Source: Methanoregula sp. (GTDB lineage Archaea > Halobacteriota > Methanomicrobia > Methanomicrobiales > Methanospirillaceae). Taken from it: DNA of 37,696 nt. Below, piece after piece: positions 6,384-23,222 of the stretch. Each line of letters opens with the position of its first letter. Position 1 is the stretch's first letter. Made by a program: the position numbers and the translations under genes. The notes below the pieces were generated by a model, which made no database searches, had not been told where the DNA came from, and saw only the letters and a list, made by a program, of their open reading frames with translations. The stretch spans positions 1 to 37,696 of the forward strand of contig JAKLEQ010000008.1 in assembly GCA_022711635.1 (NCBI GenBank), read 5' to 3'.

Positions 6384-7466
6384 TCACAGGTCCGGTATGA
6401 CGTGGATGGACGTCGCTTTGATGCAGGCGACAACATTCGTCCCCGTTGACAGGTCCAGGTCTTCGCAGGATTTTCTTGTCAGGAGGGCGCTCTGGGGTAC
6501 GCCGCCGCAATCCACCGTAACCCGGGTGAACGGCCCGAGAGGAGTCATCTTCGAAATCGTCCCCTTCAGGCAGTTGCGGGCGCTGCTCTGCGCCCCGGTC
6601 CCTGCAAGGCTCAGGGTCACATCTTCCGGCCGGATGCAGAGGCAGACCTTCGAATTCGGCTTCTCTTCCGTCACCGCCTGGAATCTGACCTGCCCGACTG
6701 CAATCGTCGCGAGGTTGTCCTCGCTGTTCTCGACAATTCCCCCGCGGATGGGCTCGATCCCGACGAACGAGGCAATCGCCCGGTTCACCGGATGGTAGAA
6801 GATCATGTTGAGATCGCCTGTCTGGACGAGTCGCCCGTCCATGACGACCCCGATCCGGTGGGCGAGGCGCTGCCCCTGGATCATGTCGTGGGTCGAGAGG
6901 ACCATGGTGGTCCTGAACTTCTTATTGATACGCAGAATCAGGTCTTCGATCATCTCTGCGTTCGTAGGGTCGAGGTTCGCGGTCGGTTCGTCGAGAAAGA
7001 GAATGTCGGGTTTTGTCACGATCGCCCGGGCAATGGCGAGCCGCTGCATCTCCCCCCCGGAGAGGGAGACGGCACGGCGCCCCGCAAGATGGGAGAGCCC
7101 GACGAGATCGAGGGCGGCTCTTACCTGTTCCCCGATCTCCCCGCGGGGGACCTTCCGGAACTTAAGGCCGGCCGCGACATTCTCCTCGACCGTTGTGTTC
7201 AAAACGGTGGGCTTCTGGAAGACCATCGCCATCTTCCGCCGGACCCTGAACCGTTCCTCCGGGTGACCATCGATCCGGGAATTGTCGATGGTGATCGTCC
7301 CTGCTGTCGGCATATCGAGGAGGTCGAGGAGGCGCAGCAGCGTGGTCTTCCCGCTCCCGGATGGACCGATCAGGGTGAAGATCTCCCCCTTCCGGATCTC
7401 GAGGCTGACACCATCGAGGATTGCCCGGCCGCCCACGCTGCGCGACAAGGCTTCCGCCCGGATCAT
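6384..7466 (-). CDS. tupC: tungstate ABC transporter ATP-binding protein with TOBE domain
   Basis: 360 residues. The nucleotide-binding domain has Walker A GPSGSGKTT (34-42), Q-loop FQKPT, signature LSGGE (135-139), Walker B ILFLDE (155-160) and the H-loop STHDM. After about residue 230 the chain continues with GIEPIRGGIVEN and, at the C-terminus, a TOBE-like domain (RNCLKGTISKMTPLGPFTRVTVD...) that in Mo/W transporters binds the oxyanion and can inhibit transport. The ATG at 7466 shares one base with the tupB stop (TGATG); a longer version starting at a GTG at 7493 would reach further into tupB and is less likely. It powers the TupB permease. Assignment to tungstate rather than molybdate rests on TupA. 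Confidence 0.92.
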   Translation of the reverse strand: MIRAEALSRSVGGRAILDGVSLEIRKGEIFTLIGPSGSGKTTLLRLLDLLDMPTAGTITIDNSRIDGHPEERFRVRRKMAMVFQKPTVLNTTVEENVAAGLKFRKVPRGEIGEQVRAALDLVGLSHLAGRRAVSLSGGEMQRLAIARAIVTKPDILFLDEPTANLDPTNAEMIEDLILRINKKFRTTMVLSTHDMIQGQRLAHRIGVVMDGRLVQTGDLNMIFYHPVNRAIASFVGIEPIRGGIVENSEDNLATIAVGQVRFQAVTEEKPNSKVCLCIRPEDVTLSLAGTGAQSSARNCLKGTISKMTPLGPFTRVTVDCGGVPQSALLTRKSCEDLDLSTGTNVVACIKATSIHVIPDL

Positions 7467-8191
7467 CAGACGGATCCTCCCATGGCCTGCCACTGCTCCT
7501 TCGAGAGGGTGGATGTGATGATGTTCATGACGATAACGACGATGAGGGCAATCGAGAGGAGGATGATCCCGAGCGCGATCGAGAAGCCGAAGTTGCCGAT
7601 CCCGGTCTCGAGCGTGATCGCGGTGGTCAGCACCCGGGTCGCCCCCCGGATATTCCCGCCGATCATCATGGCGACACCCACCTCGGAGATCGCCCGCCCG
7701 AAGCCCAGCACGATTGCGCTCAGGATGGCGAACCGGGCTTCCCTGACGATGGTTGCGATGCTCTGGAGTTCCGTCGCTCCCAGCGAGGTGAGCATGTCGC
7801 GGATATCCTTTCCCACCCCGGTTAAGGCCGAGATGAACAGCCCCATCATGATCGGGATGATGAGCACGGTCTGCCCGAGGATCATCCCCTCCGGCGTAAA
7901 GAGCAGGCCGAAGAACCCGAACGGCCCGGACCGCGAGATGAGGAGGTAGATGACGAGCCCGACAACGACTGTCGGCACTGAGTAGAGGGTCTGGATGACG
8001 ACGATCAGCGCACGTTTTCCGTGGAATTCCCGGAAATGGATCAGGCCCGCAATGGGGAGCGCAATCAACGCGGCAAGGAGCGTTGCGGAGAGAGAGATGA
8101 AGAGGGAGAGTGCGGCAATCTCGAAAACCTCTGGGTTGAGCGTGACGATCAGGTTGATTGCCTGGGAAATCCCGTCAAGAATTGCGTTCAT
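7466..8191 (-). CDS. tupB: tungstate ABC transporter permease
   Basis: 241 residues with about five or six hydrophobic segments. The cytoplasmic coupling (EAA) motif is clear: LGFGRAISEVGVAMMIGGNI near residue 165. TupB proteins are short permeases of this type that form a homodimeric membrane pore with TupC. It sits 134 bases after tupA and overlaps tupC by one base. The gap before it holds a hairpin and an internal AT-rich stretch, so the binding protein and the membrane parts may be expressed at different levels. Confidence 0.92.
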   Translation of the reverse strand: MNAILDGISQAINLIVTLNPEVFEIAALSLFISLSATLLAALIALPIAGLIHFREFHGKRALIVVIQTLYSVPTVVVGLVIYLLISRSGPFGFFGLLFTPEGMILGQTVLIIPIMMGLFISALTGVGKDIRDMLTSLGATELQSIATIVREARFAILSAIVLGFGRAISEVGVAMMIGGNIRGATRVLTTAITLETGIGNFGFSIALGIILLSIALIVVIVMNIITSTLSKEQWQAMGGSV

Positions 8192-8289
8192 CCTGCAGTA
8201 CCCCGCTTCCCTGTATCAACAATTGGAATCCCTTCCGATATACCTCTCCGTATCCTCTGTTCGTTCTATTCATTGTTTTCCTAAAACTG

Positions 8290-8310
8290 GTTCCGGAAAT
8301 CATGCGGAAC
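8290..8310 (-). promoter_or_regulatory. intergenic hairpin between tupA and tupB
   Basis: GTTCCG at 8290-8295 pairs with CGGAAC at 8305-8310 around a 9-base loop, 15 bases after the tupA stop. A hairpin directly behind a binding-protein gene commonly stabilises the upstream message or attenuates read-through into the permease. A TATA-like GTATAT at about 8236-8242 further along suggests tupBC might also have its own start. Inferred. Confidence 0.4.
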
Positions 8311-8325
8311 AAAAAATGAAATTTT

Positions 8326-9357
8326 TTATGTTGTCGTTGCAGCCGCTGCAGCGGTTGTCGCTGCCGCGGTGGCTGCAGGCTTGACATCTGTCGCCTGAGT
8401 GGTGTGGTCGCCGACCCAGCCTGCCGGAGCTTCGGGTACGGAGACGCTCATCGGGGTGAACAGCGACTTGCCGTACTTGTCTTTCCCGAAGTCTGCGATC
8501 TTGGTCTGGGTGTCGTCGGCAATCAGGAAGTTGACGAAGTTGTTCGCCATCTGGATCTTCTCGATGGGCTGCTTGTCGTTATAGACGGTCATGACGCTGT
8601 AGATATTCAGCAGGCTCTTGCCGGATGCCACCAGCGGGACGACCGAAAGGTTGGTCTTGTATGCAAGGTAGGTCCCTTCATCGGTCAGGGCGTACGCGTT
8701 CTTCTCGCTCGCCATCTGGAGGGTCTCTCCCATGCCCTTGCCGGCCTCGATATACCAGGCGCCGGACTTCTGGACGTTTGCAGAGTAGTTGTATCCCGCG
8801 CTCTTCCAGATATTCTGCTCTGCAGTGTGGGTACCCGATTTGTCGCCGCGCGAGACGAAAGCAACGCCGGCTGTCCCGTTCGTGCCCTTCACGATCAGGG
8901 TCGTGAACGCCGCTTCGGGCGCCATGTCCCTGATGCCCGCCGGATCATTTGCGGGTCCCACGATCTCGAAGTAGTTCGAGGCGAAGGAGCGCCGGTTCAG
9001 GCCGAATCCGTCCTTCATAAAAGCGAGTTCCTGCGAGGGCGAGTGGACGAGGAGGATGTCGGCATCGCCGGCTTTTGCAAGCTCGATCGCCTTGCCGGTG
9101 CCCTGCGACGTGATCTTTAAGTCAACGTTATACTTCTCCTCGAAGATGGGTTCGAGGTAGTTGAGCAGGCCGGTGTCATACAGGCTCGTTGTCGTCGCGA
9201 TGACAAGCGTTGACTTTTCTGCTGCTGCAGTTGTTGCGGCAGGTGCTGCGGTTGTCTCGGCCGGTGTCGCCGGCTGGCTTGTACATCCGCTGAATACTCC
9301 CATAGCAACGAGGAAGAATACGAGCAGAATCGTTGATAGTTTCAAGGAACCTCTCAT
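8326..9357 (-). CDS. tupA: tungstate-binding lipoprotein
   Basis: 343 residues from the chosen ATG. A lipoprotein signal ends in GVFSGCTSQ, so the mature protein is anchored through the cysteine outside the membrane. A Thr/Ala/Pro linker follows, then LVIATTTSLYDTGLLNYLEP, the TTTS signature of TupA-type tungstate-binding proteins, and DADILLVHSPSQE plus SRGDKSGTH, both typical of the fold. The last about 25 residues are a second Ala/Thr-rich tail, which is unusual. GGAAAGGA upstream fits the ATG at 9357 best; an ATG at 9363 adds two residues and a GTG at 9390 is less likely. The protein captures tungstate for TupBC. Confidence 0.93.
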   Translation of the reverse strand: MRGSLKLSTILLVFFLVAMGVFSGCTSQPATPAETTAAPAATTAAAEKSTLVIATTTSLYDTGLLNYLEPIFEEKYNVDLKITSQGTGKAIELAKAGDADILLVHSPSQELAFMKDGFGLNRRSFASNYFEIVGPANDPAGIRDMAPEAAFTTLIVKGTNGTAGVAFVSRGDKSGTHTAEQNIWKSAGYNYSANVQKSGAWYIEAGKGMGETLQMASEKNAYALTDEGTYLAYKTNLSVVPLVASGKSLLNIYSVMTVYNDKQPIEKIQMANNFVNFLIADDTQTKIADFGKDKYGKSLFTPMSVSVPEAPAGWVGDHTTQATDVKPAATAAATTAAAAATTT

Positions 9358-18324: not shown

Positions 18325-18684
18325 TCAGAATGGTTTAATCCAGTTACCATCGGGTCCCAGATTTTCACGAAGGGCAACGATGATCCCATTCGCTTTTTTG
18401 CCAGAACAATGCCACGCTACCACATCTCCATCATCGAGGCTTACGCCGCCGCGGATCCTGGTCCCGAGCCCGCATTCGATGCAGAGATCCGGCTTTTCCT
18501 GTTCGATCCGCGGGATCATATCAAGGAATCCGCTGCCGTAGAAGAGGGAGCGAAGGTCTTTTTCCCGGTGGCTGAAGTAGAGGAATTCGTAGGGCTTGCC
18601 CTCGATGGAAAAGAGGCAGTAATCGCGGTCGTGACGGGAGAACCGGCGGTGAAGAATAATCGTTCTGCTTTCAGGCCGTTTCAT
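18325..18684 (-). CDS. hypothetical protein in the DsrE/TusA-like operon
   Basis: 119 residues. It has a strand-rich N-terminus (RTIILHRRFSRHDRDYCLFSIEGKPYEFLYFSHREKDL) and a Cys pair in PDLCIECGLGTRIRGG, plus a late Cys-Ser in VVAWHCSGKKANG. No family is recognised. It overlaps the stop of the TusA-like gene by four bases, so it is translated with it and probably acts in the same process. The CxxC may bind metal or carry sulfur. About 150 bases beyond its 3' end, up to the OsmC stop, hold no gene that I can support. Confidence 0.72.
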   Translation of the reverse strand: MKRPESRTIILHRRFSRHDRDYCLFSIEGKPYEFLYFSHREKDLRSLFYGSGFLDMIPRIEQEKPDLCIECGLGTRIRGGVSLDDGDVVAWHCSGKKANGIIVALRENLGPDGNWIKPF

Positions 18685-18935
18685 CCGGCCACCCCCTCTT
18701 TTTTCGCCCTCGCAATGGTCACGATATACCGGTTCTTCCCCTCCGGGCTGACCGTCACATCATATCCCGTGCGGGAGAACGGGACCTCGACGGTATCCCG
18801 CTGGTCCCTCCGGACGAAGCAGGAGAACGATCCCCCTTCGGGCATTCCCTTCAGCTTCTGCTTGAGCCGGATCATAAGGGAGGTACAGGTAAGCGCCGTG
18901 AAGTCCGGTATCTCCCCCGTCGGTCTGTCGGTCAT
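18681..18935 (-). CDS. TusA-like protein lacking the CPxP motif
   Basis: 84 residues. The layout follows TusA/SirA: a leading strand (EIPDFTAL), the sulfur-carrier position with TCTSLMIRLKQKLKGMPEGG, then a strand (SFSCFVRRDQRDTVEVPFSRTGYDV) and a final strand (KNRYIVTIARAKK). In place of the usual Cys-Pro-x-Pro it has Cys-Thr-Ser-Leu: the cysteine stays, both prolines are gone. It may still carry a persulfide with altered reactivity or bind a partner. It starts 11 bases after the DsrE-type gene ends, so the three genes form one unit with that gene. Confidence 0.72.
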   Translation of the reverse strand: MTDRPTGEIPDFTALTCTSLMIRLKQKLKGMPEGGSFSCFVRRDQRDTVEVPFSRTGYDVTVSPEGKNRYIVTIARAKKEGVAG

Positions 18936-18946
18936 CTGAGATCGCT

Positions 18947-20191
18947 TCAGAAGAAGAGGATCCGCTGGTGGTTCCCGCCGGCATTCTTCGGTGCCGAGAA
19001 GAGGAGCTGTGCCAGTTCCTGGGTCCCGATATCCAGGACCCCCTTCAGCTGCTTGTTCTTCTGGGCACTCCGTCTCTGGAGCGACGGGGTGTGGGCATAG
19101 AACTCGAGGTTCTCGCTCCCGGACGCCGCGTCGATTACGTCCTGCATATTGAAGAAGACGTCGTCTGATTCCGCAGTATGGGTACCGGTCAGCGCGTAGA
19201 CCCCGTCTTCGAGGAAGATGACCCGGGTCGCGATGCCCTGGTGGGCAGCGGCGATTGCAAAGGAGAGCGCCCCGAACGTATGCTCGGTCCCGTAGGGAGT
19301 CCTTGTGATCACGATGACCTGCGACGGTGATGCGGATTCTTTCTTCCCCCAGGACTCCGGCCGGGGCTCTGTCCCCCGGGCTATCCCGGCGATACCGGAG
19401 GACTCGCCGGCGATGGGATGGTTCTTCCTGAAACGGTCGATCGTTACGTTCAAATTCCGGATCTTGCAGGGCTCGATCGTGCAGGTCGAGATCACGATCC
19501 CTTTACCGTCATCCCAGGTGCTGTAGCCTCTCGCGCCGGCGCACCGGCTGCAGACAAGCATCGTGAACGGCAGGTTCTTCTTCCCCGCGACCTGCTCCAG
19601 TTCCAGAAAACCCTCGCCGATGTTCCTGAACTCCGTGGGTTTCTGGTTGAGGTGGCTGATGTGGATCCCGTCCAGATACGCGTACACTTCCGGAGCCATC
19701 TGCTCCTCGACGGCTGCATGGAGGCAGGTCAAGGAATACTGGCAGGGGCGGTTCATGTACGGCGACGAGAGCTGCAGGAAACCGAACGTTCCGGAGCCCG
19801 TTTCGTGCCGCCGCCAGACCCTGACGAGTTCCCGCCAGAACGACCGGGGGTAACTGTTCTGCCGCCCGTTCTGGTCGGAGATATTATTGGGGTATTTCAT
19901 CTTCAGGGAAGAGAGGGAGATGCCCCGGAGATCCAGTTCCTCCCGGTCGCAGACGAGTCTTACCGAGGGGAGGGAGAGGATGATGTCCCAGAGCGGCAGG
20001 GTCTCCTCGTCATGGAGGCTGTAGAGCGAATCCCCGGTTAAGAAGAAGATGAAGAACGGGTCCTTTTCGCGGGAGGGGTGACGGAGAGCGTCCGGGTGGA
20101 TCGCGACAAAGAAATTTTTCAGCGATTCGGCGACCCAGGAGAGGCGCTCAGCGGTCAGTTTTTCGCCGAAAAGGAAAGAATTGGATGCCAT
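18947..20191 (-). CDS. protein of three DsrE-like domains
   Basis: 414 residues, while single DsrE proteins are about 120. Three repeats of the fold can be read. Domain 1 (about 1-110): PFFIFFLTGDSLYSL and VRLVCDREELDLRGI. Domain 2 (about 140-255): SLTCLHAAVEEQMAPEVYAY, LPFTMLVCSRCAGARGYS, and STCTIEPCKIRNL. Domain 3 (about 290-405): VIVITRTPYGTEHTFGALSFA, VIFLEDGVYALTG and LEFYAHTPSLQRR. Domain 2 keeps CSRC and CTIEPC cysteines; domain 3 has none at the usual place. DsrE-type proteins pass persulfide sulfur to or from TusA. A TATA box at about 20218-20227 and a TTAACCA core just after it suggest its own, repressible promoter. Domain boundaries are estimates. Confidence 0.75.
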   Translation of the reverse strand: MASNSFLFGEKLTAERLSWVAESLKNFFVAIHPDALRHPSREKDPFFIFFLTGDSLYSLHDEETLPLWDIILSLPSVRLVCDREELDLRGISLSSLKMKYPNNISDQNGRQNSYPRSFWRELVRVWRRHETGSGTFGFLQLSSPYMNRPCQYSLTCLHAAVEEQMAPEVYAYLDGIHISHLNQKPTEFRNIGEGFLELEQVAGKKNLPFTMLVCSRCAGARGYSTWDDGKGIVISTCTIEPCKIRNLNVTIDRFRKNHPIAGESSGIAGIARGTEPRPESWGKKESASPSQVIVITRTPYGTEHTFGALSFAIAAAHQGIATRVIFLEDGVYALTGTHTAESDDVFFNMQDVIDAASGSENLEFYAHTPSLQRRSAQKNKQLKGVLDIGTQELAQLLFSAPKNAGGNHQRILFF

Positions 20192-20250: not shown

Positions 20251-20478
20251 TTACGGCTTCGTGCACCGGAGTTCCCAGAGCCCGGAACCGATCTTTTTCG
20301 TCACGCAGTTCATGCCGTTATCCCTGCAGTACTGGGGGATTGAGTCCTGTGCCGCGGGCGGGTGGTCGCAGGTCACGACCAGCGTGTCGCCCGCTGCCAG
20401 CTTTTTGCTCTCCTTCTGGACCGCGAGGAGACAGAACGGGCAGACTTTTCCGGTAAGATCCAGTTTTTTGTCGGTCAT
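20251..20478 (-). CDS. tusA: TusA-family sulfurtransferase
   Basis: 75 residues from the ATG at 20478, which follows GGAGG by 11 bases; an upstream TTG at 20502 would overlap the transporter gene. The motif LTGKVCPFCLLAVQKESKKL places the sulfur-carrying cysteine at C13; the last residue of CPxP is Cys (CPFC), giving a second thiol at C16. The rest is the TusA fold (GDTLVVTCDHPPAAQDSIPQYCRDNG; LWELRCTKP). TusA accepts persulfide sulfur and hands it to partners, in E. coli including molybdenum-cofactor and tRNA thiolation. It follows the YeeE/YedE pair by 16 bases, an arrangement common in sulfur/selenium loci. Confidence 0.9.
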   Translation of the reverse strand: MTDKKLDLTGKVCPFCLLAVQKESKKLAAGDTLVVTCDHPPAAQDSIPQYCRDNGMNCVTKKIGSGLWELRCTKP

Positions 20479-20494
20479 GGTGAAGCATACCTCC

Positions 20495-21007
20495 TTACGC
20501 AATCCCCTTCAGCATCGCAACGACGAGGCCGGAGATCCAGAGGGTGAAGACAACCGACCCGATGCACATCCCGATGACGAAGAAGAGGGATTTGATACTC
20601 CCTTCCGAGGTCATGACGCACTGCCGGAGCGGGCAGCCGCCGAGGATAACCCCGATGATACCGATCGCAATCCCGCCGATGACGGCAAGGATGACGTAGG
20701 CGAGGGGCGAGAGCCCGGCCGGTGCTCCCGGGACCGGGGTAAACCCGCTAGTCAGTAACCAGAAGAAATGCTCGAAAGCGGACGGAGTGATCAGCCAGAA
20801 GACCAGGTAGCCGATGAATGCACCAGCGATCAGGGCGAGGTACCCGTTCAGGAGCCGGGTGTGGCGGAACATGAAGAAGTCCCGGAACCCGCCGATGGAG
20901 CAGAAGCCCGAGCGCTGCCCGAGCCACCCGATCAGGATGCCAAGCACGATAGTCACGATGGGGACGGCGACCACGGCGATTTCCTTCGAGAGCCAGCCTG
21001 CTGCCAT
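20495..21007 (-). CDS. YeeE/YedE-family transporter, second half-size subunit
   Basis: 170 residues, half the usual 350-400. It has about four hydrophobic helices. GQRSGFCSIGGFRDFFMFR and GGCPLRQCVMTSEG are the paired Cys-Gly motifs of the YeeE/YedE family, whose members import thiosulfate or take part in selenium or sulfane-sulfur handling. It shares one base with its partner gene (TAATG). Two half-size units presumably assemble into the full pseudo-symmetric channel. Substrate not shown by sequence. Confidence 0.87.
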   Translation of the reverse strand: MAAGWLSKEIAVVAVPIVTIVLGILIGWLGQRSGFCSIGGFRDFFMFRHTRLLNGYLALIAGAFIGYLVFWLITPSAFEHFFWLLTSGFTPVPGAPAGLSPLAYVILAVIGGIAIGIIGVILGGCPLRQCVMTSEGSIKSLFFVIGMCIGSVVFTLWISGLVVAMLKGIA

Positions 21008-21525
21008 TATACTTCACGCTCCGCGATTGTTGTCGCGATCCTGATCCCGACCAGGACACCGGCAATGATCCCGAGGAGGCCGATGAAAGCTATCGCATCC
21101 CCGTAGCCGACCCGGAGCGCGATCCGGTACGGGCACCCTCCCATGAACAGGGCGAAGACCATGAAAAAGAGCCCGCCGAGCAGGTACCAGAGGTACGAAA
21201 GTGCCGAGCCGGTCTTTGCCCGGAACTCGTCGTACGTTTTCGCCGAGATGAACGCCCCGATGAGGACGCCAACGACCGTCATGACGGGCAGGACCGCGTT
21301 CTGCGAGATGGGGGCGGCGGCGAGCTTCATGCCGGTCAGGGCATTGACGCCGATGTTCACGACATCGCGGGTGTGGCAGGCGACACAGAAGCCATAGGCC
21401 TCCGGCCCGCCGGCACTGATGAGGAGGACCTGCACGAGTGCCGCGAGGATACCGATCAGGAGCCCCACTACAAGGGGGTTCCGGGCAAGGGAATCGATAC
21501 CCGAGGGTTTATTCTCATTATCCAT
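21007..21525 (-). CDS. YeeE/YedE-family transporter, first half-size subunit
   Basis: 172 residues with about four hydrophobic helices. It carries the family motifs in the order AYGFCVACHTRDVVNIG and FMGGCPYRIALRVGYGD; the first differs from the usual GxxSGFC and has an extra cysteine (CVAC). The N-terminal 16 residues are polar. It starts the operon that continues with the second half and tusA. The promoter is likely in the AT-rich region 21540-21620. Together the three suggest uptake of thiosulfate or another sulfane-sulfur source handed to TusA. Confidence 0.87.
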   Translation of the reverse strand: MDNENKPSGIDSLARNPLVVGLLIGILAALVQVLLISAGGPEAYGFCVACHTRDVVNIGVNALTGMKLAAAPISQNAVLPVMTVVGVLIGAFISAKTYDEFRAKTGSALSYLWYLLGGLFFMVFALFMGGCPYRIALRVGYGDAIAFIGLLGIIAGVLVGIRIATTIAEREV

Positions 21526-21698: not shown

Positions 21699-22271
21699 TT
21701 ATTTCAACCCATTCTCCTGCATTTCCTCCCGGACCTCGTCGATATGCATGACCCGGTCGAGGGCGGCACCGGTCAGGCAGTACCCCTGCTTGTCAAGGGC
21801 ATAGACCGGGAACTTGGCCAGATCCTCGGGGACGGGTTTCGCGGTGAGTTTCTTGAAGTTGAGGAGGTCCTGGACATGCAGGCCGATCTTGTCGCAGATC
21901 TCCCGGAGTTCCACGATCCAGCGCTTGAGGTCCCGGACATCTGCCCCGTCCCATTTGAAAATCTGGTAAATTTTCATGTAGGCGTCGCGTTCCAGCATGA
22001 TGTGGGTGGAGTTCTTGTCGGACTTCAGGTAGAATTCGAGAAAAGTCCGGGTATCCTTCACCTGTTGGGCGTGTTCGTAGGCGGCTGCCCGGCACTCTTT
22101 GAGCGCTTCCCTGAACGCTTCGGGTTCCATCTTACCGCCAAGTTTGGCGATATCGGTCGACAGTTCCTTCAGGTTCTCTTCAACCTCTTTCAGTTCGCTG
22201 ATCAGTTCTTCGAATTTCTGGTTCAGCTCTACCCCGAAGAACGCCTCCATGTACTCGGAACCTTTCGCCAT
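21699..22271 (-). CDS. coiled-coil hypothetical protein divergent from the sulfite-reductase-like gene
   Basis: 190 residues. Residues 10-60 are a heptad-rich helix (FEELISELKEVEENLKEL...), followed by more helices (AFREALKECRAAAYEHAQQVKDTRTFLEFYL) and a C-terminal region (PVPEDLAKFPVYALDKQGYCLTG). It is soluble and acidic with no signal. I do not recognise the family. It shares a 72-84-base control region with the siroheme protein gene, so co-expression is plausible and a regulatory or chaperone role can be imagined, without direct evidence. Confidence 0.75.
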   Translation of the reverse strand: MAKGSEYMEAFFGVELNQKFEELISELKEVEENLKELSTDIAKLGGKMEPEAFREALKECRAAAYEHAQQVKDTRTFLEFYLKSDKNSTHIMLERDAYMKIYQIFKWDGADVRDLKRWIVELREICDKIGLHVQDLLNFKKLTAKPVPEDLAKFPVYALDKQGYCLTGAALDRVMHIDEVREEMQENGLK

Positions 22272-22355
22272 CAGAAGTACTTGGTAATCCCATCCTATAA
22301 TCGTTCGTACTAAGGCAACATCTATCCATTAACGCGCCATAGGATGATAGGAAAT

Positions 22356-23222
22356 ATGCCCAGACTGCCACGAGTCAAGCAGGAGTTGTATACCAAAGGC
22401 GGGATTATCACGGAACGGGATCCCGACTTCTGTATCGTCCGGCTCCGGATGCCGGCCGGGATGATCTCCCCGGCCCAGATGAAAGGTGTTGGGGAGATCG
22501 CGGAGAGGTACGGCATTGATCAGGTTCACCTGACAACCCGCCAGACCATGGAGTTCCCTCACGTGGATCCTTCGAAGCTCGAGGGGCTCCTTTCCGAGCT
22601 CGAAGCGAACGGGACGCCGCTCGGGGCGGAACGCGAGGAGATCGTGAACGTTACCGCATGCCTCGGTTCACGGAACTGCAAGTTCGGGATCATCGACAGC
22701 GTCGGGCTTGCGAAAAAGATCGATACAGAGTTCTTTGGAAAGGAGCTCCCGATCAAGGTGCGGATCGCGATCTCCGCATGCCCGAACGGCTGCGAGAGCG
22801 AACGGCTCAACGAGATCGGGATCACCGGTATCCGTCGCCCGATCCGCGACCCGGGCCTCTGCACGGGGTGCGGGACCTGCGCCCACTACTGCCGGGAGAA
22901 GGCGATCCGCGTCGAGGACGGAATCATTGTCCTTGCGGCAGAGAAATGCATGGAGTGCGGGTTCTGCATCATGCCCTGCCCCTTCCATATCATCAAGGGT
23001 ACCGACCCCCAGTTCCGGATCACCGTTGGCGGGCACCGGGGCCGGCACCCGAAGATCGGCCGGCACCTGATAACCGTCAACACCGAGGAGGATGTTCTCC
23101 GGGTTGTGGAGAAGATCATCTATTGGATCCACCGGCAGGCATCCACGGGTTCGCTCCTCCCCGAGCAGCTGGATGAGCTTGAGTTCGACACGTTCAAGAG
23201 AGAGATAGCGGCGCTCGTTTAG
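22356..23222 (+). CDS. small siroheme sulfite-reductase-like protein with two ferredoxin clusters
   Basis: 288 residues from the second in-frame ATG; the ATG at 22344 adds four residues. The N-terminal nitrite/sulfite-reductase ferredoxin-like half (12-90, including HLTTRQTMEFP) precedes the siroheme-[4Fe-4S] ligands CLGSRNC (C102, C108) and CPNGC (C142, C146). Two [4Fe-4S] motifs follow: CTGCGTCAHYC (C169-C179) and CMECGFCIMPCP (C198-C208). This matches the short dissimilatory-sulfite-reductase-like proteins (Dsr-LP) of methanogens, whose substrate is mostly unproven; sulfite or another sulfur oxyanion is the natural candidate. It stands next to TusA/DsrE/YedE genes and converges on the fwd operon. 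Confidence 0.9.
   Translation: MPRLPRVKQELYTKGGIITERDPDFCIVRLRMPAGMISPAQMKGVGEIAERYGIDQVHLTTRQTMEFPHVDPSKLEGLLSELEANGTPLGAEREEIVNVTACLGSRNCKFGIIDSVGLAKKIDTEFFGKELPIKVRIAISACPNGCESERLNEIGITGIRRPIRDPGLCTGCGTCAHYCREKAIRVEDGIIVLAAEKCMECGFCIMPCPFHIIKGTDPQFRITVGGHRGRHPKIGRHLITVNTEEDVLRVVEKIIYWIHRQASTGSLLPEQLDELEFDTFKREIAALV

Follow-up and report, generated by a model that had tools for sequence, protein, structure and literature searches.

A fused DsrH-DsrE-DsrF protein in a conserved YeeE-TusA cassette of methanogens and Asgard archaea, a candidate chalcogen relay

Several described systems share features with the locus analyzed here. DsrEFH of Allochromatium vinosum and TusBCD of E. coli are built from three units with the DsrE fold (types H, E, and F), with one active-site Cys, located in the E unit, and a TusA partner. 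In the DsrEFH type II, or YTD, clusters, the genes for YeeE/YedE, TusA, and DsrE, F, and H lie together and the DsrE Cys is conserved (PMC13293266). Experiments on this related, unfused system showed that the Cys is indispensable and demonstrated transfer between TusA and DsrEFH (PMC13293266). The YedE-YedF-SelD system resembles the locus in its TIGR04112-like transporter, split in archaea, in its TusA and DsrE domains, and in the selD linkage seen here for Asgard archaea (PMC5322559). Finally, TsuA-TsuB (YeeE-YeeD), for which thiosulfate uptake has been demonstrated, likewise pairs a YeeE importer with a TusA-family partner (PMC11073785).

Gene layout and identity of the fusion protein

The window, i.e., the whole stretch of 37,696 nucleotides that was analyzed, is one contig from the MAG of a member of Methanomicrobiales (G000, 77% complete), and its nearest named homologues belong to Methanoregula. 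Three open reading frames of 414, 84, and 119 residues, singled out by a first-pass annotation as a self-contained complex, were recovered on the minus strand (Table 1). The conserved unit extends upstream of position 20191 on the same strand, where TusA and both YeeE halves are encoded. The description as self-contained is not supported: a split YeeE/YedE transporter also belongs to the unit, as does another TusA, and in Asgard archaea selD is often attached. The two YeeE half genes overlap by 1 base, the TusA gene overlaps the YeeE half upstream of it by 8 bases, and the p84 and p119 genes overlap by 4 bases. The operon TusA is 83 residues long or shorter, the listed start being TTG with an ATG 8 codons in.

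Table 1. Coordinates of the cassette genes and of the fusion domains in the window.
Feature	Coordinates	Strand	Evidence
YeeE/YedE N-terminal half, 172 aa membrane protein	21007..21525	-	Sulf_transp PF04143 E 3e-8
YeeE/YedE C-terminal half, 170 aa	20495..21007	-	PF04143 E 2e-7
TusA-family sulfurtransferase, motif CPFC	20251..20502	-	PF01206 E 1.4e-15
DsrH-DsrE-DsrF fusion, 414 aa	18947..20191	-	PF02635 E 1.4e-14, hhalign, AlphaFold2, Foldseek
Fusion domain 1, residues 1-128, DsrH/TusB-like	19808..20191	-	hhalign, PF04077
Fusion domain 2, residues 134-262, DsrE-like	19406..19792	-	hhalign; C214-x-x-C217-A-x-A-R-G-Y
Fusion codons C214-S-R-C217	19541..19552	-	alignment; motif spacing
Fusion domain 3, residues 285-414, DsrF/TusC-like	18950..19339	-	hhalign, Pfam DsrE best stretch 292-398
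p84, divergent TusA-like, 84 aa, C17-T-S-L replacing CPxP	18681..18935	-	PF01206 in family members
p119, CIEC protein without known family, 119 aa	18325..18684	-	AlphaFold2 model, homologues

By profile comparison, the 414-residue protein is a DsrH-DsrE-DsrF fusion whose domains correspond one to one to the DsrEFH subunits. The hhalign references were families of separate archaeal DsrE, DsrF, and DsrH genes (single E. coli TusB/C/D sequences were uninformative). Domain 1 matched DsrH (88.4%, E 2.8e-6; less than 2% to DsrE and DsrF), domain 2 matched DsrE (99.2%, E 3e-19), and domain 3 matched DsrF (97.5%, E 6e-12), the last with weaker similarity to DsrH and DsrE, as expected inside one superfamily; the fusion domains scored at most 2.2% against ten unrelated control families. 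Domain 3 and a second stretch of the chain match Pfam DsrE (E 1.4e-14), which is matched by all fusion homologues (58/58), whereas Pfam DsrH (PF04077) is matched by 9/58 members with a best E of 0.0042, a result that is weak alone and consistent with the assignment. The AlphaFold model is confident (pLDDT 88.7, pTM 0.90), and its top PDB matches in Foldseek are 2d1p_A (TusBCD) and 2hy5_B and 2hy5_A (DsrEFH), with E between 5e-5 and 1e-4; YchN is also among the top folds. The initial proposal that three DsrE-superfamily domains in one chain mirror DsrEFH is thus borne out, including for domains 1 and 2, where the lack of a DsrE fold would have told against it.

Separate archaeal DsrE-, DsrF-, and DsrH-like genes lie side by side in other archaea, and in two loci (L129, L133) they are ordered H-E-F-TusA, colinear with the fused domains. 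The chain is single in 58 aligned homologues. A split copy was seen only in genome G011, where the fusion is broken between the DsrE and DsrF domains into frames of 283 and 143 aa (L042, about 7292-8534); a second, intact copy lies ~12 kb from the split one. A search for viral relatives found none.

Since TusBCD (2d1p) is the best structural match, the cassette might be regarded as a TusBCDE-like relay for tRNA thiolation. We consider this very unlikely, because TusE/DsrC (PF04358) is absent from all genomes searched (0/61; the E. coli control was positive), and both the operon importer and the selD linkage are foreign to the Tus system.

The spacing of the domain 2 motif is common to E. coli TusD and the archaeal DsrE family. 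C214 aligns with the active-site Cys78 of TusD/DsrE and is nearly invariant (58/62 fusion proteins); domain 3 has no Cys at the active-site position. The pair C214xxC217 is present in all cassette proteins (31/31) versus 11/31 proteins without a cassette (Fisher test, shared descent ignored), and it also occurs in five further Asgard fusion proteins. C217 is only partly tied to the cassette, as 11 proteins without one retain it, and tracking of the cassette by C214 itself was not significant (p 0.11).

Distribution and genomic neighborhood of the cassette

Fusion homologues, nearly all full length, were found in 19/61 relatives. A public pattern scan located the fusion in 62 named loci of Methanoregula, Methanolinea and relatives, Lokiarchaeota, and one record labeled Bathyarchaeota; it missed some divergent Asgard members that were found by a later Asgard search, so the fusion may have bacterial relatives as well. 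The majority of host genomes are MAGs. The Bathyarchaeota-labeled record (L106) groups with Asgard genomes, belongs to the phylum set that includes the Lokiarchaeota, and carries a selenocysteine selD, and its label is probably wrong.

The recurrent gene order is YeeE_a-YeeE_b-(TusA)-fusion-p84-(p119). YeeE is found near the fusion in 30 named loci, and so is p84, in methanogens and Asgard archaea. The cassette is also present in further Asgard genomes, and the nine Asgard genomes with a full-length fusion all have it, as far as contigs allow. In nearly every cassette locus the p84 gene comes immediately after the fusion. The Methanolinea-type cassettes have no TusA, and p119 is present in several Methanoregula and most Asgard cassettes; of 247 genomes from the window's phylum, only two, both cassette carriers, have p119. 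Conservation at 33-64% identity across phyla rules out chance. In a tree of 63 fusions, in which some Asgard branches are long and uncertain in their order, the cassette accompanies every Asgard row and every main Methanolinea-clade row, whereas Methanoregula-side rows without it appear in several places. The simplest reading is a loss of the cassette on the Methanoregula side, with the paralogue clade standing beside moeA.

Both the cassette and the paralogue loci of Methanoregula are located near moeA, fdhAB, and fwd/fmd genes. As a special methanogen case of a relay, the cassette could give sulfur to the Mo/W-pterin cofactor used by formate dehydrogenase and by formylmethanofuran dehydrogenase, in line with the role stated for TusA in molybdenum cofactor biosynthesis (PMC11073785) and with the stated effect of YedF/FdhU on Campylobacter formate dehydrogenase (PMC5322559). 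However, this neighborhood is not kept in Methanolinea (except for L108) or in Asgard archaea and may be inherited synteny, and we regard such a cofactor-specific function as rather unlikely.

Divergent from the operon, a gene at 22344-23222 on the plus strand encodes a 292-residue sulfite-reductase-like protein with NIR_SIR and ferredoxin domains, which is found at all 8 Methanoregula cassette loci and in Methanoregula only. Together with gene kinds that recur in the YTD cluster (YeeE, TusA, DsrEFH; PMC13293266), it could be taken as a sign that the cassette, like YTD/DsrEFH type II in the published proposal, feeds dissimilatory sulfur oxidation or disproportionation. This is extremely improbable given that DsrC is missing from all 61 genomes, that the sulfite-reductase neighbor is confined to one genus, and that the cassette is carried by methanogens and Asgard archaea.

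Other neighbors were observed as well. A 190-residue coiled-coil-like protein, matching no Pfam family over the cut-off, is encoded just upstream of YeeE (21699-22271, minus strand) and is syntenic in Methanoregula. In a second clade without YeeE (L035, 7112-7855, and L036-L039), the fusion follows fwd/fmd genes and is immediately preceded by a nitroreductase-family (SagB-like) gene. A methyltransferase with a Cys-rich start, ArsM-like by eye (L099, 4068-4907), occurs in the wider neighborhood of six cassettes.

TusA, p84, and p119

The operon TusA scores best with TsuB/YeeD. Where TusA lies next to p84 or YeeE, its motif is CP[YF]C in 17/18 cases, whereas all TusA proteins of paralogue loci (8/8) have SP[YF]C, i.e., the first Cys is replaced by Ser.

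Judging from its family, p84 is probably a divergent TusA. PF01206 is matched by 20/24 p84 members (best E 2.9e-8), with the p84 of the window below the cut-off (E 0.017), and hhalign gives only 9.4% between p84 and the operon TusA. CPxP is absent from all p84 members, which have C-T-[N/S]-[L/F] instead: C17-T18 never varies, the next residue is N or S, and in nearly all members L comes after it. The original suggestion of a TusA-like partner that has lost CPxP, with C-T-S-L at that site, is supported.

The same holds for the 119-residue CIEC protein said to follow with a four-base overlap, and its motif is C-x-E-C in 20/21 homologues, the exception being L206. Pfam has no family for p119. Its AlphaFold2 model, built from nine sequences, has pLDDT 93 and pTM 0.86, and no solved structure in the PDB is alike (best E 0.56). 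Assignment of p119 as DsrE-, TusA-, or rubredoxin-like found neither profile nor fold support. Several stray Asgard p119 genes adjoin TusA, DsrE, or YeeE. In L202-L205 a stray p119 lies upstream of a 286-residue protein that is tRNA methyltransferase-like by eye, and the order in L205 is FAD-dependent oxidoreductase, TusA, and p119. Shorter p119 relatives adjoin DsrE in L209 (5396-8103, with TusA) and L210 (6563-8255), with a LysR-like regulator alongside; a LysR subfamily has been tied to selenium use (PMC5322559).

Selenium linkage, proposed relay, and known systems

The N-terminal YeeE half matches TIGR04112 (seleno_YedE) over positions 4-132 with 85 bits, and the C-terminal half over positions 182-304 with 74 bits. 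Both fit seleno_YedE far better than TsuA, although the cut-off of 200 bits is missed by each half and by their sum (159). In four loci (L088, L097, L176, L177) a selenocysteine-type selD (motif GUSCKL) directly follows p119, and in L106 such a gene is divergently adjacent to the cassette, making five Asgard loci in total. A selenocysteine-type selD is carried by 8/9 Asgard genomes with the cassette. In L206 a p119-SelD pair stands without the remaining cassette. On the methanogen side, no SelD over the cut-off was found in the cassette carriers that are 98% complete or more, or in four further cassette-bearing genomes; the single Methanomicrobiales genome with a SelD above that cut-off (1/61) has no cassette.

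The cassette could be devoted to selenium in every host, methanogens included, with a YedE-YedF-like importer and a perselenide carrier. Such a system would account for the seleno_YedE matches and the five selD loci, and it would agree with the published correlation of archaeal split YedE genes with SelD (PMC5322559) and with the rise of yedE and tusAD transcripts under Se depletion in Methanococcus maripaludis (PMC11097638). Deletion of yedE in Methanococcus gave no clear phenotype (PMC11097638), and the main text of the Asgard selenoproteome paper does not mention YeeE, YedE, TusA, or DsrE (PMC11227280). The missing SelD of the methanogen carriers makes selenium in all hosts quite improbable, and it likewise weakens the idea, prompted by the seleno_YedE matches, that the window's lineage uses the cassette for selenium. 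The linkage of selD in Asgard archaea and its absence from methanogen carriers lead instead to a split reading, i.e., selenium in the former and sulfur in the latter.

A chalcogen-relay function is strongly suggested by the gene families of known activity, and we think it probable that the six genes constitute a relay that carries zero-valent chalcogen, either sulfane sulfur or the selenium equivalent, from the membrane into the cytoplasm, working in the manner of the DsrEFH/YTD and YedE-YedF-SelD systems. The data establish the gene cluster with its conservation, the identity of the domains, the conserved Cys residues, and the Asgard linkage to selD; from there we infer transport and persulfidation, the substrate, the direction and the order in which it is transferred, and the methanogen acceptor. 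The split YeeE/YedE would import a chalcogen compound, which the CPFC TusA would accept in the form of a persulfide on Cys. Next, the fused DsrHEF would act as a covalent DsrEFH heterotrimer and central relay with one catalytic site, C214, and C217 beside it. Then p84, with its single conserved Cys, and p119, with its CxxC, would receive the chalcogen from the fusion and pass it to the final acceptor. Some cassettes lack TusA (Methanolinea) and some lack p119, which argues against a fixed chain; not every relay step is needed.

The final acceptor in Asgard archaea is most likely SelD, with selenium carried, although the p119 beside SelD in L206 has lost its CxxC, which speaks against this reading. 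With no SelD found in Methanoregula and Methanolinea, the relay there most likely carries sulfur for biosynthetic use, and the Mo/W-enzyme neighbors suggest a different acceptor in Methanoregula. More tentatively, and with less than even confidence, we propose that the physiological path of selenium in Asgard archaea, from a YedE importer to selenophosphate synthetase, runs through a one-chain DsrEFH-type relay and two new small carriers. In methanogens the same machine would work on sulfur and serve another acceptor. The cassette connects archaeal SelD with a sulfurtransferase relay, and in the Asgard operon the handover of selenium to SelD becomes directly testable; if true, the selenium role may be the most interesting part of the finding. 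In addition, the single chain fixes the three DsrEFH subunits at 1:1:1, yielding a relay that is easy to express, mutate, and solve, and the cassette adds two uncharacterized carriers, of which p119 has a confident predicted fold without a PDB match.

A literature search found no description of a fused DsrEFH/TusBCD chain, p84, or p119. The first-pass annotation had not recognized the complex as a described one, which holds for these three proteins but not for unfused YeeE-TusA-DsrEFH clusters (PMC13293266) or split archaeal YedE (PMC5322559). Compared with DsrEFH and TusBCD, the present system has one 414-residue chain in the order H-E-F instead of three subunits, a CxxC at the active site, and no DsrC/TusE in the 61 genomes searched. 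It differs from DsrEFH type II/YTD by the fused chain, the split YeeE, the extra p84 and p119, and its methanogen and Asgard hosts; the search for those clusters demanded three separate genes, so that a fused chain would be passed over (PMC13293266). With respect to YedE-YedF-SelD, there is a full DsrH-E-F unit in place of one DsrE-like domain, and the methanogen carriers are without SelD (PMC5322559). In contrast to TsuA-TsuB, the transporter consists of two halves, TusA has CPFC rather than CPxP, and relay proteins are encoded downstream (PMC11073785). The single chain and its p84 and p119 partners are what is new relative to the DsrEFH/YTD and YedE-YedF-SelD systems.
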